Origin: Deltaproteobacteria bacterium
Lineage (GTDB): Bacteria; Desulfobacterota; Syntrophobacteria; BM002
Assembly (NCBI GenBank): GCA_022340745.1
Contig: JAJDNL010000053.1
Coordinates: forward strand, 1-40,964
DNA length: 40,964 bases
Direction of reading: 5' to 3'
Program-made: the position numbers and the translations under genes
Part shown: piece after piece, positions 2,645 to 38,790 of the stretch
How the letters are laid out: each line of letters starts with the position of its first letter
Position numbering within the stretch: the stretch's first letter is position 1
The notes under the pieces: model-generated
Databases searched by the model: none
Told to the model about the DNA's origin: nothing
What the model saw: the letters and a program-made list of their open reading frames with translations, nothing else

Positions 2645-2893
2645 TGTCATTTATAGTCATTTGGCCACTGCAAGTGGCCGTCACTACGCTGCGCTGTCAT
2701 TAGGTAGTCATTAGGTTACTTATTTGGCTTTGAGTACGCTACGCTGTCACTATGCCTTCGGCGTCATTTATTGTCATTAGGTCAGTACGCTACGCTGTCA
2801 CAGTTGACTCTCATTGTGGCCTTGAGACAATTTATTGACAGCCGTAAGGCTTGATGACGGGCGCAGCCCTCATGACGGCGCAGCCAAATGACT
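2645..2893. repeat. TGAC-hairpin modular repeat block, copy 1
   Basis: Hairpins GGCCACTGCAAGTGGCC (2663-2679), GCCTTCGGC (2754-2762), GCCGTAAGGC (2841-2850), GGGCGCAGCCC (2859-2869) and GGCGCAGCC (2877-2885), separated by GTCATTT/AAATGAC linkers. Confidence 0.85.
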
Positions 2894-2921: not shown

Positions 2922-3701
2922 CTAATGAACTAACCACCCCCATCCAATACAACCGGGCAGTAGATTGCCCAGGATGGCGGCCAGGAGTAAAAGGGTTACT
3001 TCTATTATCTCGTTCCCGGCCCCTAATAGATCACCGGTGATACCACCCATATGTCTCCTACACCAAGCCCCATATACCCAGGTTATGACCTGGGCGACAG
3101 CCAGAGCAACCAAGCCCAAAGGTCCGTAGGCCAGGGCTGCGATCAGGACAACAGTAAATGCAGCCCAGCGCTGATAAGCTGAAGCATCCTGAACAAAAGG
3201 AAGGGCAGTCCCGCCCTCACTTCTGGCATAGGGCAATGTCACCGCCAGCTGGACCTGCATGGTTCGGGAAAGCATGTGAATAAGAATCAGCCAAATTGTG
3301 GCTCCGGCCGCAACCAACCTGGCGAAAGCCAACCACTTGCACAGCAAAGTGAGGATGATGGCCACAGCGCCAAAGACTCCCAGCCGGGTGTCTTTCATAA
3401 TCTCGAGGCGCTTACGTTGATCCCAGCCTCCACCCGCCGCATCAACAAAATCCGCCAGACCGTCCAGATGAAGCGCCCGGGTACTTATAACGCTTGCGAG
3501 AAGCATCAGTGCTCCGATACCCATAGGCCAACCGCCACCGTTGATAATTCTATTGATGAGGCTGATAGCCCAAAGAAGGAGTCCGAGGACGAGACCTACC
3601 AAGGGGAAAAAGGGCAAGGATTCGCTGTGTTTTGAAGCATCCTGACCAGGAACAGGAAAGATGGTCAGGGTCCGAAAGGCTGTTACCAATCCGCGTAACA
3701 T
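2922..3701 (-). CDS. cobS: Adenosylcobinamide-GDP ribazoletransferase (cobalamin synthase)
   Basis: TIFPVPG, FFPLVGLVLGLLLW, TRALHLDGLADFVDAAGGGWDQRKRLEIMKDTRLGVFGAVA are CobS signatures. Confidence 0.95.
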   Translation of the reverse strand: MLRGLVTAFRTLTIFPVPGQDASKHSESLPFFPLVGLVLGLLLWAISLINRIINGGGWPMGIGALMLLASVISTRALHLDGLADFVDAAGGGWDQRKRLEIMKDTRLGVFGAVAIILTLLCKWLAFARLVAAGATIWLILIHMLSRTMQVQLAVTLPYARSEGGTALPFVQDASAYQRWAAFTVVLIAALAYGPLGLVALAVAQVITWVYGAWCRRHMGGITGDLLGAGNEIIEVTLLLLAAILGNLLPGCIGWGWLVH

Positions 3702-3747: not shown

Positions 3748-3920
3748 TGGTCATTTGGTCATTAGGCCACTGGACGTGGCCGTCATAAGCCTGGCGGCGG
3801 TCAGTTGGGCTGCGCCCGTCATGAGGCCTGACGGCCGTCATTAAGTCATTATGTCTTAACAATAAATGACAGCGAAGCGCAATGACGGCTTTAGCCAAGT
3901 GACGCGAAGCAAATGACCTG
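3748..3920. repeat. TGAC-hairpin modular repeat block, copy 2
   Basis: Hairpins GGCCACTGGACGTGGCC (3765-3781), GGGCTGCGCCC (3807-3817), GGCCTGACGGCC (3825-3836) and GGCTTTAGCC (3887-3896), with GTCATTA/AATGAC linkers. Confidence 0.85.
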
Positions 3921-8947: not shown

Positions 8948-11179
8948 TCATTTTACCAGTTCTTCTAATCCTTGTTTGAGCTGCTTCTGTTTTTTTTGGT
9001 TCAGAGGCGGCTCGGCAGTTTGCTCGGCAGGCTGCTTCTTCTCCGGTTTCTTCAGAAGCTTTTTTCCTTCTTTCTTTGCCATTTTAGCCAACCAGCGCTG
9101 ATCCAGCCCATATACTGGTTCATCTATGGTGCCGGTTACCGTGAGGGGGAGCTGAACGAAGCCATGCTTATCGGCAATCTTGGTTGCTATATCACGAAGC
9201 GGCGGGATTTTGCCAACATACTGAGCTCTGATTTGGAGGGATAGATGCACGTCAAGCGTTTTGTCCACTAGACTCGCGGTGCCAGTACCTTCGGCTTGGA
9301 CTATAGGTCCCACCAGATGAAACCTTTTGAGGGTGGCAATTCCCTTGCTGGTAAGTACCCTTGCAGTGACCTGGGAGAAGCGGAGATGTTGGAGATCTTC
9401 CGCTTGGAACAATTGTGCAAACTTGACGAAGAGAGGATGTCCAGAGAACTCTGCCTCATTGATGTTCAAAATAGTACGGGACTGAACTGCGGGCAGATTA
9501 GTGCCACTCCCCTTTGCTCGCGAAATCATGTTGACATTACCCGACCAGCTCCCCTTCGTTTGCGGCCAAAAAGCAGCTATGATTTCGTCCAAGAGTATAT
9601 TCTCTGTGTAAATGACGGATTGAAAAGGCGGGCCCGGCGACTCGACATCGCTCTTCACACTTCCTCCGAGTGCACCACCATACAGTGATGCTGATAGTGG
9701 TTCCACTCGAAGCTTGCCGTTTTGGAGGATAAGCTTACAGTCCACATTACTTACAACTAGTTTGTTGTATAAGAACCAATCCAGATGAATCTCTCCCTGG
9801 GCATCCAGTGAGATGGGCTTTGGTCCTAACTGGCCAACTGTAGGTGGCAGATTGGCTTCGGCAGCGGGACTCGAGGCAACTGGCTCCACCACCACGTCTT
9901 TCCTTTGATCAGTACCAGGGGTGGATTCGGTTTTCAAGTCAGGCTTTTCCGGTGTCCCCTCAGATTTCTTTGTCGGTTCGCTTGGAACCGCGGGAGTTGT
10001 TGATTCAGAGCCGGGTTCTGGCACCACATTTTCCGCTAAATGCTTATCCCGTGCCGCTGGTTGCCCGGGATCCGCCTTGGGTTCTTCGCTTGGAGATGGC
10101 GTCCCTGAAAAGAGTGCCAGGAGTTCATCCAGTTTGATTTGAGGCGAATTCAGAGTGAAGTCGAAGTGAGGCCTTTGCTGCCACTGCGTAAGCACGCCCT
10201 GGATCTTGGCTTTCTGACCATTAAGCTCGAGATCGAGATTACCTATATCAAGGGTCTGTTGGGAACGAACTGCATCCAGTTGAAAACCGGCTTCAATCTG
10301 GAGGGTTTTTGTTAGGTTTTCGTCTTTTTTTATTTTGAGCCCGCTGAGGGCAAGGCTGCCTTGGGTTAAGAAGTGGTCAAAATCCTCTACTGCCACGGCT
10401 GCTTCCATTGTCAATGTGCCCTGCTGAATAAGGTCTCGGGGATTGCCGGCAATAAAAGGACTCAGAATGGTAAGATCGATCCCTTGGAGATTCATCTTCC
10501 CTTTCAGGCTATCTTTGGCCAGGTCATACGTTCCTTTGATGATCAGAGATCTTTCGTCTGCTCCCTGGACTTGCCCCTCTATTTCGAACGGAACGGGGGC
10601 AGTGGTTGAAAAGTCAGTGAAACGCGATCTGATGCTGCCTACTCTTAACGTTGCTTGGGGCTGCTGAGAAAGATCTACCAAGTTCAGTTGCCCATCTTGC
10701 ATAGCAAGCAAGGTAATAAAAAGGGGGACACCGGCGGGCTCTCTGTTGTGCTGCCTCATGGCAGGTGCAGTCTTTTCCGCCTTGGCCATCTCAGGAAGGA
10801 GATCGGCAATGTTCAGCGATCCGTCTTTCTGCCGGACAAGGGTGATCTCCGGCCTGGTAAACGCGAGGGTGTGGATGACGATCCTACCCTTAAATAGCTC
10901 CTTGAATTTCCATCGAAGCTCCAGCTTTTCGCCTTTGAGCAATGGAGCATCAGCACCCTTTTTTCGTATCTCCAACCCCTTGACACAAAAACCACGAAAG
11001 CCAACGCTAGCCTCTGCCAAAGTCACGTTGCGGTGCAGATAGTGTTCCAAAGGAGGCGTAATCATGGCGGTTATGAGTTCGCTGGTAAAGTAGAGCCGGA
11101 CAGACAAAACAAGTATCAAAACTAGGAGAACCAGCCCACCCAATATCAGAGCCGGCTTTTTATATTTCTTCGGCAACAT
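8948..11179 (-). CDS. AsmA-like / DUF748-type large periplasmic protein
   Basis: 743 aa; N-terminal TM; YFTSELITAMITPPLEHYLHRNVTLAEASVGF, LELRWKFKELFKGRIVIHTLAFTRPEITLVRQKDGSLNIADLLP and C-terminal LTVTGTIDEPVYGLD are typical of the AsmA superfamily. Confidence 0.8.
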   Translation of the reverse strand: MLPKKYKKPALILGGLVLLVLILVLSVRLYFTSELITAMITPPLEHYLHRNVTLAEASVGFRGFCVKGLEIRKKGADAPLLKGEKLELRWKFKELFKGRIVIHTLAFTRPEITLVRQKDGSLNIADLLPEMAKAEKTAPAMRQHNREPAGVPLFITLLAMQDGQLNLVDLSQQPQATLRVGSIRSRFTDFSTTAPVPFEIEGQVQGADERSLIIKGTYDLAKDSLKGKMNLQGIDLTILSPFIAGNPRDLIQQGTLTMEAAVAVEDFDHFLTQGSLALSGLKIKKDENLTKTLQIEAGFQLDAVRSQQTLDIGNLDLELNGQKAKIQGVLTQWQQRPHFDFTLNSPQIKLDELLALFSGTPSPSEEPKADPGQPAARDKHLAENVVPEPGSESTTPAVPSEPTKKSEGTPEKPDLKTESTPGTDQRKDVVVEPVASSPAAEANLPPTVGQLGPKPISLDAQGEIHLDWFLYNKLVVSNVDCKLILQNGKLRVEPLSASLYGGALGGSVKSDVESPGPPFQSVIYTENILLDEIIAAFWPQTKGSWSGNVNMISRAKGSGTNLPAVQSRTILNINEAEFSGHPLFVKFAQLFQAEDLQHLRFSQVTARVLTSKGIATLKRFHLVGPIVQAEGTGTASLVDKTLDVHLSLQIRAQYVGKIPPLRDIATKIADKHGFVQLPLTVTGTIDEPVYGLDQRWLAKMAKKEGKKLLKKPEKKQPAEQTAEPPLNQKKQKQLKQGLEELVK

Positions 11180-11356: not shown

Positions 11357-11677
11357 GTCATTACACTACGCGCATCCGCGCTCCGTTGTCACTCGGGCTG
11401 CGCCCGTCATCAGGCCTTACGGCCGTCATTGGTGGTCATTTGCCTTCGGCGTCATTTATTCGCGCTCGCTGCGCTCCGCTCAGTCCCGCAAGCGGGTCCC
11501 TAGTCTGGGCTGGCGCCCGTCATTTATAGTCATTATGTAGTTATGTGTTTTCTTTATTATCTATAATCATAAAGACCTAGTGACAACAAGTGACAGCGAA
11601 GCGTAATGACGGCTTTAGCCTAATGACGGCCACTTTCAGTGGCCAAATGACCATAAATAATGCCGCAGGCAAAATGA
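11357..11677. repeat. TGAC-hairpin modular repeat block, copy 3
   Basis: Hairpins GGGCTGCGCCC (11395-11405), GGCCTTACGGCC (11413-11424), GCCTTCGGC (11442-11450), CCCGCAAGCGGG (11485-11496), GGGCTGGCGCCC (11507-11518), GGCTTTAGCC (11611-11620) and GGCCACTTTCAGTGGCC (11628-11644), with GTCATT/AATGAC linkers. Confidence 0.88.
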
Positions 11678-11751
11678 CTCTATCGCTGATTGCTTTAGAT
11701 CGTTCGCAATAAAATGGTGGGTTCGTGAGGGAGGATTCGCGGTCCGCTCTT

Positions 11752-12822
11752 CTAAGTGCGGCGGGTAAGGGTATAATCAGCGATTTCGAGAAAGGAATCT
11801 AAGGTAGGTGAGGGTGGAAAAATTGACAGAGCTGATTTGGCCACAGCAATATAATTGCTCGCAAGCTGGTCAGTGTAGTCGAGTCCCTGATACTGTTTGA
11901 TAATTGTTTTTACCTCAGCAAAGGCTTTTTCATAATTACCCTCTGAGGTGATGAGTTCAACCAGACGCTGGCGGTCCACTTCGTTACTTGACTGCAGAGC
12001 GCGAATGAGGGGTAGGGTGATCTTGCCTTCCTGAAGATCCTTCCCCACAGGTTTGCCAAATTCCTCCTCACTGCCGGCATAGTCCAGGAAGTCGTCTCTA
12101 AGCTGGAAAGCGATGCCTAGGTTGAGGCCGAATAACCGCATGGCATTTTCTTGCTCCTCGTCAACCTCACCAAGGATGGCACCGATCTGGCATGCTGCCG
12201 AAATGAGAATCGCAGTCTTACGTGTAACAACCTCAATGTAGTCCTCTTCAGAGATCTCCAGGTTGTCACTGTTGATGAGTTGGAGTACCTCACCTTCAGC
12301 CATGGAGGTGGTAGTTTCCGAGAGGACCCGGAGGATTCTTAAGTTGCCACTCATCACGGTGAGGAGAAAGGAGGTGGCCAGAAGAAAATCACCCACGAGG
12401 ACAACAGCGGCATTGCCCCAGAGGGTGTTGGCCGATGGCCTGCCGCGCCTCAATTCAGCATTGTCCACAACATCATCATGTAGAAGGGTGGCGGCGTGCA
12501 GATACTCGAATACGATAGAGAGGGCATATTGATAATTGCCTTGGTAGTTGGATAATCGGGAGGCAAGCACCATCAACAGAGGGCGCAGACGTTTTCCCCC
12601 GCTGCGCATGATGTAGCGGGTCACAAGAGCGATAAGTGGAACACTTGAGTGCAGATTTTTTTTGATTTCCTCCTCGATGAGCTGGAGGTCATCATCCAGC
12701 TGCGCGAAGAATGAATACTGGGGGGGTGTCAAGTCTTTTGCGGTGCTCTTGGAGGACAATGGAGACGTTCCTGAGTTAAAGTTAGGGCTGGAAAAACGCC
12801 AGAACACTTCTACATAGCCCAA
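11752..12822 (-). CDS. ispB: Polyprenyl synthetase (octaprenyl-diphosphate synthase-like)
   Basis: GGKRLRPLLMVLASRL, ATLLHDDVVDNAELRRGRPSANTLWGN (first Asp-rich motif) and AFQLRDDFLDYAGSEEEFGKPVGKDLQEGKITLPLI (second Asp-rich motif). Confidence 0.92.
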   Translation of the reverse strand: MGYVEVFWRFSSPNFNSGTSPLSSKSTAKDLTPPQYSFFAQLDDDLQLIEEEIKKNLHSSVPLIALVTRYIMRSGGKRLRPLLMVLASRLSNYQGNYQYALSIVFEYLHAATLLHDDVVDNAELRRGRPSANTLWGNAAVVLVGDFLLATSFLLTVMSGNLRILRVLSETTTSMAEGEVLQLINSDNLEISEEDYIEVVTRKTAILISAACQIGAILGEVDEEQENAMRLFGLNLGIAFQLRDDFLDYAGSEEEFGKPVGKDLQEGKITLPLIRALQSSNEVDRQRLVELITSEGNYEKAFAEVKTIIKQYQGLDYTDQLASNYIAVAKSALSIFPPSPTLDSFLEIADYTLTRRT

Positions 12823-32902: not shown

Positions 32903-33685
32903 ATGAAAACCATGATGTTGACACTCGTATCAGCAGCCTTGGCCGCTCCTGCTGGCGGGACTCCCCGCAATGGTATCATCGACATGATACTCGGTGCCGG
33001 TGCGGTAGTGAAGCTCGTGCTCATCATATTGATCTTTCTCTCCATCGCCTGCTGGGCGATTATTTTTCTGAAACATAGAGTCTTGAAAAGAGCAAGCAAA
33101 GAAAGCTCTCGCTTCCTCGATCTATTTTGGAACAGCAAGAATCTTGCGACTGTTTATCGAGAATCCAAGAAAATGGAGGATAGTCATTTGGCTGAGATTT
33201 TCCGAGTAGGTTATATGGAACTCGGTAGGCTGACCAAATCCAGCGATCGTGAAAAAGCGGGAGATCCCAATGAGTTGGAAATGGCACTGATGTGGAGCGA
33301 CAATATGGAGAGGGCTTTACGCAGCGCTGTCAATGGTGAGGTGCAGCGGCTGGAGAAAGCCCTCACCCTGTTGGCTACCACGGGTAATTCCGCGCCATTT
33401 ATTGGGCTCTTCGGCACAGTGTGGGGTATAATGGTTGCTTTTCAGGGCATCGGTCTCAAGGGATCTGCAACGTTGGCTGTTGTGGCACCTGGTATCTCCG
33501 AAGCGCTCATAGCGACCGCTGCTGGTCTGGCCGCGGCCATTCCCGCTGTAATTGCTTATAATCATTTCTCCAGTAAGGTGCGAAATCTCGAGACAGAAAT
33601 GGTCAATTTCGCCAATGATTTCTTGAATATTGTGAAAAGAGATTTGGCGAGACGCTCCAGCTTGGCGGAAAAAAGTGAGGGGTAG
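32903..33685 (+). CDS. tolQ: TolQ/ExbB-family proton channel protein
   Basis: SIACWAIIFLKHRVLKRA, LEKALTLLATTGNSAPFIGLFGTVWGIMVAFQGIGLKGSATLAVVAPGISEALIATAAGLAAAIPAVIAYN. Confidence 0.95.
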   Translation: MKTMMLTLVSAALAAPAGGTPRNGIIDMILGAGAVVKLVLIILIFLSIACWAIIFLKHRVLKRASKESSRFLDLFWNSKNLATVYRESKKMEDSHLAEIFRVGYMELGRLTKSSDREKAGDPNELEMALMWSDNMERALRSAVNGEVQRLEKALTLLATTGNSAPFIGLFGTVWGIMVAFQGIGLKGSATLAVVAPGISEALIATAAGLAAAIPAVIAYNHFSSKVRNLETEMVNFANDFLNIVKRDLARRSSLAEKSEG

Positions 33686-33736
33686 GAAATTTCTGCTACG
33701 GAGAACTAGGAAGTAGCCAGTATGCGCTAAAAGCAA

Positions 33737-33832
33737 GAAGTCAGGAGCCAGAATTCAGAATCCAGAAGGAAGCAATGCAGATCGAATTCCCCTCAACTAC
33801 TGGCTGCTGGCTGCTGGCTACTGGATTCGAGT
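33737..33832. repeat. 7-bp period inverted repeat inserted between tolQ and tolR
   Basis: aagtcaggagccagaattcagaatccagaagg...ctactgg ctgctgg ctgctgg ctactgg attc; similar to 137-230. Confidence 0.85.
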
Positions 33833-33889
33833 TCTAGTGTTTTTGGCGAGCCTTTGTTGGCCGGCCAACAGGTTCGAAGAGGTGTCTCC

Positions 33890-38698: not shown

Positions 38699-38718
38699 GA
38701 CTAAGGGCGTACCTCATA

Positions 38719-38790
38719 GGTCATCTCGCTTTGCCGTCATCCATGGTCGTCTGTGGTGGCGATGCAATGACGGCGCAGCCAGATGACCTG
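38719..38790. repeat. Small TGAC-hairpin modular repeat block, copy 4
   Basis: GGTCATCTCGC...GCCGTCATCC ... AATGAC-GGCGCAGCC-AGATGACCTG; ends as copy 2 does (ATGACCTG). Confidence 0.65.

Follow-up and report, generated by a model that had tools for sequence, protein, structure and literature searches.

Two-armed arrays of TGAC-tagged mini-hairpins, apparently an undescribed relative of bacterial REP repeats, in uncultured Desulfobacterota

REP repeats are recognised by sequence and by RAYT. The CGTC-tagged REPs include dRS3 of Neisseria and RPE-4/6 of Rickettsia (Di Nocera et al. 2013, PMC3733652). In DNA chemistry, GNA or GNNA loops carried on at least two G-C pairs make extraordinarily stable, nuclease-resistant mini-hairpins, with GCGAAGC melting at 78 C (PMC4686876), and hairpins of the d(GCGNAGC) type are, as cited in that paper, the work of Hirao, Yoshizawa and co-workers. 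Here we describe two-armed arrays of hairpins tagged with TGAC, apparently a so far undescribed relative of bacterial REP repeats.

The window analysed is the whole of contig JAJDNL010000053.1 (40,964 nucleotides), from the MAG of an uncultured Desulfobacterota bacterium (3.9 Mb, 301 contigs, 95.8% complete). The block studied here is flanked by a DUF748/AsmA gene (8948-11179, minus strand), whose start faces it, and by a polyprenyl synthetase gene (11752-12822, minus strand), whose end faces it; through the latter, the closest named relatives are FCS_Desulfobacterota_29 and Desulfobacteraceae BM002 (93%), with bin435 next. The sequence-only reading had seen in this block TGAC/GTCA-tagged hairpins in two opposed arms about an A/T-rich centre, and the layout was borne out. 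GTCA starts at 11357, 11388, 11406, 11425, 11435, 11451, 11519 and 11529, always left of the centre, and TGAC at 11581, 11591, 11607, 11624, 11648 and 11675, always right of it. Within 11357-11677 (321 nt) there are 13 such tags, against a mean of 1.87 and a maximum of 7 in 2000 dinucleotide shuffles. Seven tags carry a hairpin at the foot (stem of at least 3, loop of 3-5), for which the same number of shuffles gave a mean of 0.18 and a maximum of 3.

The stems of the block are not random but come mostly from a small recurrent library, each in many copies: GGCC-GTAA-GGCC, GGGC-GCA-GCCC, GCC-GNA-GGC, GGC-GNA-GCC, AGC-GNA-GCG, GGCCAC..GTGGCC and AACGAAGCGC..GCGCGAAGTGT. About eight stem modules recur in the source genus. 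The stems listed in the sequence-only reading are present in the block, but CCCGCAAGCGGG belongs to a nested 49-nt element and most of the differing stems prove to be members of this library. Missing from that list was the AGC-GNA-GCG unit (11595-11603), which has a stem of just 2-3 bp and is the commonest unit of the genome. Table 1 gives the parts of the block and the other arrays of the window.

Table 1. Arrays in the window, their parts, and the basis or a remark for each.
Feature	Coordinates	Strand	Basis or remark
Entire two-armed array (GTCA tags in the left arm, TGAC tags in the right)	11357..11678		Read in sequence; shuffles
Module M3, on the TGAC strand AACGGAGCGC-GGAT-GCGCGTAGTGTAA, GCGC/GCGC stem, inner GNA/GNA mismatch loop; GTCA tag 11388-11391	11361..11387	-	Recurs with other N in GNA
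Module M2, GGGC(GCA)GCCC; tag 11406-11409	11395..11405	-	Foot-hairpin scan
Module M1, GGCC(GTAA)GGCC; tag 11425-11428	11413..11424	-	Foot-hairpin scan
Module M5, GCC(GAA)GGC; tag 11451-11454	11442..11450	-	Missing at the same place in sister G001
Nested 49-nt element M8, contains CCCGCAAGCGGG	11459..11506	-	Dispersed or in head-to-tail arrays elsewhere
M2 variant, GGGC(GCCA)GCCC; tag 11519-11522	11507..11518	-	Foot-hairpin scan
A/T-rich centre	11533..11580		Replaced in the sister species' orthologous arrays
TGAC + module M4, AGC(GAA)GCG, commonest genome unit	11591..11603	+	Genome-wide pattern and token counts
TGAC + GGC(TTTA)GCC	11607..11620	+	Foot-hairpin scan
TGAC + module M6, GGCCACT(TTC)AGTGGCC	11624..11644	+	Foot-hairpin scan
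TGAC, linker, GCC(GCA)GGC, outermost TGAC	11648..11678	+	Read in sequence
Second two-armed array, 3' of cobS-like gene (2922-3701, -)	2645..2893 (about)		Window comparison
Third two-armed array, 5' of cobS-like gene (2922-3701, -)	3752..3918		Window comparison
Fourth copy, small, weak, degenerate	38718..38788		Window comparison; tag-pair pattern

Apart from its copy in the window, the 49-nt element M8 (AAACTGGGAACCCGCTTGCGGGACTGAGCGGAGCGCAGCGAGCGCGAAG) is found at L090:3650-3790, L080:12720-12820, L089 and L091. It stands by itself, in head-to-tail arrays that lack TGAC, or nested with a hairpin on one side and TGAC on the other. At L087:15358, L186, L222, L226 and L035:3200, the element has inserted into a further dispersed repeat (TTTCATGAATTGCTGTCGCGAGACC...GATGGGCGTGCCACC).

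The possibility that the family was confined to the four loci of the window is refuted by the genome as a whole, where the pattern AATGACN{6,34}ATGAC has 358 matches against 68 for its reversed control. BLAST with the block returned 95 matches, spread over dozens of contigs. Hairpins follow the tags in the source-genome DNA sampled as well, with a foot hairpin in 242 of 478 TGAC-to-TGAC tokens as compared to 104 when shuffled; 109 of these have GNA triloops and 29 have GNNA tetraloops. The strict unit AATGACNNCGNAGNNNNATGAC is present in 86 copies in the source genome and 102 in the sister genome G001 (BM002), with 0 for the control. It was found in all 11 genomes examined from the source genus g1 (ten) and a sister genus g2 (one); 45 further genomes of the class had none. 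The proposal of a REP/BIME-like family of TGAC-tagged two-armed hairpins is supported across the genome and the genus, and we regard the arrays as almost certainly a real, REP-like repeat family. A search of the open-access literature found no description of TGAC-tagged mini-hairpin arrays, literature matches to sequence words being irrelevant ones only, and the block had no match among plasmid and phage records. The multicopy repeats of Geobacter metallireducens differ from the TGAC arrays, going by the part of their description that was available.

Arrays number in the dozens in the source genome and are intergenic; for this genome and G001 together, 97 of 101 lie outside called ORFs. Units are stacked head to tail, forming two arms that point away from each other on either side of an A/T-rich centre. 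Every GTCA comes before every TGAC in 24 of the 32 arrays of the source genome and in 21 of the 26 of G001, where shuffled orientations lead one to expect 2.7 and 2.5, respectively. Discordant tag pairs make up 38 of 647 in the source genome and 23 of 503 in G001, and none of the 101 arrays is convergent or mixed when judged by its hairpin units.

The typical unit, on the TGAC strand, consists of TGAC, a mini-hairpin with a C-G closing pair and a GNA or GNNA loop, then AA and the next TGAC. The loop rule is clearest in the 12-nt tokens, meaning each stretch of that length between two TGACs in the source-genome DNA sampled (n = 108), for which no hairpin was required and which, save for three loci, were not selected by their loop. 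C at position 3 (93 tokens), G at 4 (89), A at 6 (90) and G at 7 (92) are each kept in 82-86%, while position 5 is free (A 43, C 19, G 22, T 24). The stems of these tokens are mostly AGC/GCG, GGC/GCC and GCC/GGC, and a GNA loop is present in 77 of the 85 source-genome tokens whose inner 2 bp pair. Longer tokens contribute GGGC-GNA-GCCC and GGCC-GNNA-GGCC. By inspection, the longest module, M3, has a GNA/GNA mismatch within its stem, and N is variable there too. GNA loops were counted in 118 of 122 cases in G001, a figure biased by the picking of some loci with a pattern containing CGNAG. The earlier suggestion that structure plus tag, rather than stem sequence, is what is conserved thus holds in part for the source genus: the c(GNA)g or c(GNNA)g loop is strict with its N free, but the stems form a limited library.

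The loop rule sits on the TGAC strand. Since the two arms have this strand on opposite sides of the duplex, top in one and bottom in the other, the rule does not follow the direction of transcription and points to DNA. This bears directly on an explanation at the RNA level, in which transcribed arrays would serve as mRNA stabilisers, processing sites or attenuators within operons. Gene context agrees with such a role, since co-directional genes flank 57 of the 82 arrays classified and convergent genes another 19, as do the GNRA-type loop of M1 and the strong RNA folding of the block (z -4.1). Folded as DNA, however, the block is equally far from its shuffles (z -4.3), no RNA fold is predicted for AGC(GNA)GCG units, the window has no Rfam match at gathering score, and the rule tracks the tag strand rather than the transcribed one. 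We consider an RNA element unlikely. Folding energies of the two strands are mostly equal, and the argument for single-stranded DNA rests on the published melting data because the energy parameters used contain no GNA bonus and show little strand difference.

Comparison to the sister species shows where arrays change. At three window loci, the outermost modules are shared on both sides while the middle differs, with the edges of change at tags. At the DUF748 locus, two modules that the sister lacks, M5 and M8+M2, lie in the window between conserved GTCA tags. At the L232/L217 locus, just one of the species has the 49-nt M8, placed between a hairpin and the TGAC that follows. At one further locus the whole array is inverted between its outermost tags (local score 189 inverted against 33 direct, with a shuffled maximum of 23). 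Across this handful of loci, read partly or largely by eye, the edges of module exchange, gain and loss coincide with the tag, and the outer modules stay in place while the centres are replaced. Precise empty sites in sister genomes, which had been suggested for comparison, were not found. Other intergenic filler replaces the array where a sister lacks one, and the three candidate loci have an array in G001 and unrelated filler in the source genome, so de novo insertion is not demonstrated.

Intergenic filler in the source genome and its relatives (for example L082, L191, L232, window 33660-33875) contains several degenerate tandem repeats of about 7 nt, namely AGGCACT/AAGCACT, GGCAGTA, TGAATTC/TGACTTC, AATCCGA and CGCGTCTCCGTGTC. 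These often occupy positions where the sister species has an array.

Related units occur outside the source genus. G193 belongs to a different family of the phylum; of its 23 TGAC-to-TGAC tokens, 15 have a foot stem of at least 4 bp, against 1.0 when shuffled. All 15 stems differ, so that conservation of structure and tag without stem sequence is fully upheld in this distant family, where GNA or GNNA loops occur in part only. In G319, GCCC(GAA)GGGC and related units are found throughout a gas-vesicle cluster. IMG/VR contigs L143, L163, L159 and L178 have AGC(GNA)GCG units between genes, and two of them, L178 and L143, encode terminase and other phage genes closest to those of Bacteroidota phages. 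Most of the 45 matched IMG/VR stretches are single matches, probably coding or chance. The reversed control pattern gives matches in some other genomes, which in our view reflect the existence of other heptamer repeats; those genomes were not counted. AATGAC heptamer and octamer arrays (G279, G023), which lack hairpins, and non-hairpin AATGACGTTGTG arrays (G030) have only the tag in common with the family and were not counted as members. Given such tandem AATGAC without hairpins and a control that is not silent, little weight can be given to the tag by itself outside g1, G193 and G319.

Several observations belong beside these. Arrays at L249 and L250 (G319 contig 29; another Desulfobacterota family) crowd the gas-vesicle gene cluster and seem rare elsewhere in G319; horizontal transfer of the cluster together with its arrays is possible. 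As a carrier of the enzyme the cluster was rejected, the ten genes examined there being gvp, hsp70, AAA, two-component or unknown, with no transposase. Bacteroidota-type phage contigs L143, L144, L149, L159, L163 and L178 show intergenic TGAC + AGC(GNA)GCG with CAATGAC linkers. Contigs 1, 2, 7, 13 and 16 of G023 hold long octamer tandem arrays, AATGACTC/AATGACTT, without hairpins.

The sequence-only reading had linked the hairpins to a Y1/RAYT transposase, and this link is unsupported. The source genome has no match to Y1_Tnp (PF01797). Y1_Tnp matches exist in 12 of the 13 genomes examined from the order, and at 0 of the 12 inspected loci of relatives do TGAC-GNA units appear beyond chance in flanks of about 1.5 kb, two isolated matches being the only ones. 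With neither the source genome nor the 12 relatives having a unit-flanked Y1 gene, a dedicated partnership with Y1/RAYT was rejected; any enzyme serving the units is unlikely to be a Y1/RAYT of their own with its gene next to them. One could still suppose RAYT-mobilised REPs whose Y1 gene was lost or is missing from the assembly, as the source genome is a MAG of 95.8% completeness and Y1_Tnp is widespread in the order. The bare flanks of the relatives' Y1 genes, a tag that is not GTAG, and a genome rich in units that lacks Y1 make this very improbable.

Tag-edged exchange could come from ordinary recombination or template switching between repeats. Passive palindrome dynamics, for which no dedicated enzyme is needed, would involve extrusion or fork stalling, an SbcCD-type cut at the centre, and repair that copies from other arrays or switches template into them; micro-homology would come from AATGAC and the hairpins, and stable hairpins would persist by driving the process. 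The turnover of centres with outer modules kept at three loci, the in-place inversion of one array, the mosaic of recurrent modules and the absence of a transposase from the Y1_Tnp search all agree with such dynamics, which we hold to be quite possible and the chief competitor of the enzyme model set out below. Against them, exchange points share only about 4-6 nt, and two features are left unexplained: the recurrence of TGAC with unrelated stems in other families and Bacteroidota phages, and the kept C-G closure and loop G and A around a free N.

The mechanism that we favour, with reserve, is one in which single-stranded DNA hairpin cassettes are cut and joined at TGAC by a putative trans-acting enzyme. 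The hairpin would act in single-stranded form, which replication forks or the extrusion of a cruciform would expose. A strand-transfer enzyme acting in trans would read the tag and mini-hairpin together and would cut and join next to TGAC, so that units would move as cassettes; insertion next to the tag is modelled on IS200/IS605. These models borrow mechanics that are established for IS200/IS605, SbcCD and REPs themselves. The enzyme model and the passive palindrome model have most predictions in common, and the former is placed above the latter because the tag is constant across unrelated stems and lineages. More speculative is a broader version, in which an enzyme family recognises TGAC plus an ultra-stable GNA/GNNA mini-hairpin with almost any stem and shuffles such structure-coded cassettes into intergenic two-armed arrays, both across several families of bacteria and in phages from a different phylum.

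Among known systems, the GTAG (GTRG) REPs, BIMEs and REPINs served by RAYT/TnpA-REP resemble the TGAC arrays in their foot tetranucleotide, high copy number, intergenic position, inverted arrangement and mosaic clusters. Both are short, extragenic, multicopy palindromes (here, 97 of 101 arrays outside ORFs and 86 strict units in the source genome). The TGAC arrays differ in a tag that is TGAC throughout, in far shorter stems with several per array, and in having no Y1 gene in the source genome and no unit-flanked Y1 gene in relatives. The alternating orientation of BIMEs is absent, the arms being uniform and divergent (24/32 and 21/26, with 0/101 convergent or mixed). Hairpins of class 3 TnpA(Y1) (PMC6006769) also have an atypical foot tetranucleotide and reach high copy number in some genomes, but their foot is CnGA and they flank their genes, neither of which is true here. 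The ends of IS200/IS605 likewise pair a hairpin with an adjacent tetranucleotide that is recognised in single-stranded DNA; the arrays have no full element, transposase, left and right end pair or demonstrated insertion, and as to mobility of that type they show module edges at TGAC in orthologous arrays and no clean empty site.

The d(GCGNAGC) mini-hairpins and the TGAC units obey the same rule, a GNA or GNNA loop, its N free, carried by two or more G-C pairs. The motif is known from chemistry; the literature search turned up no family of genomic repeats described as being built on it. What is conserved here is the tag together with a thermodynamic rule from DNA chemistry, the C-G closed GNA/GNNA loop, while stems may vary. 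If correct, this would give the d(GCGNAGC) mini-hairpin a natural role and point to a candidate single-strand-DNA enzyme not yet described.

The CGTC REPs (PMC3733652) share with the TGAC arrays short extragenic palindromes, inverted pairs and the lack of an associated transposase (Y1_Tnp being what was searched for here). They have stems of 8-9 bp including AT, loops of 4-5 nt, a CCA tail, a CGTC, TGTC or CCTC tag, and rare clusters. In the TGAC arrays, stems are 2-7 bp without AT, loops are GNA or GNNA, tails are AA with no CCA, arms normally contain several units, and tags stand on either side of a unit. Yet on the other strand most units read (C/T)GTCATT, which matches CGTC plus the stem-opening AT of the CGTC REPs, except that here hairpins flank both sides. 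Conservation of the tag and the loop rule would offer a link between the TGAC arrays and these orphan repeats, which are likewise without a transposase.
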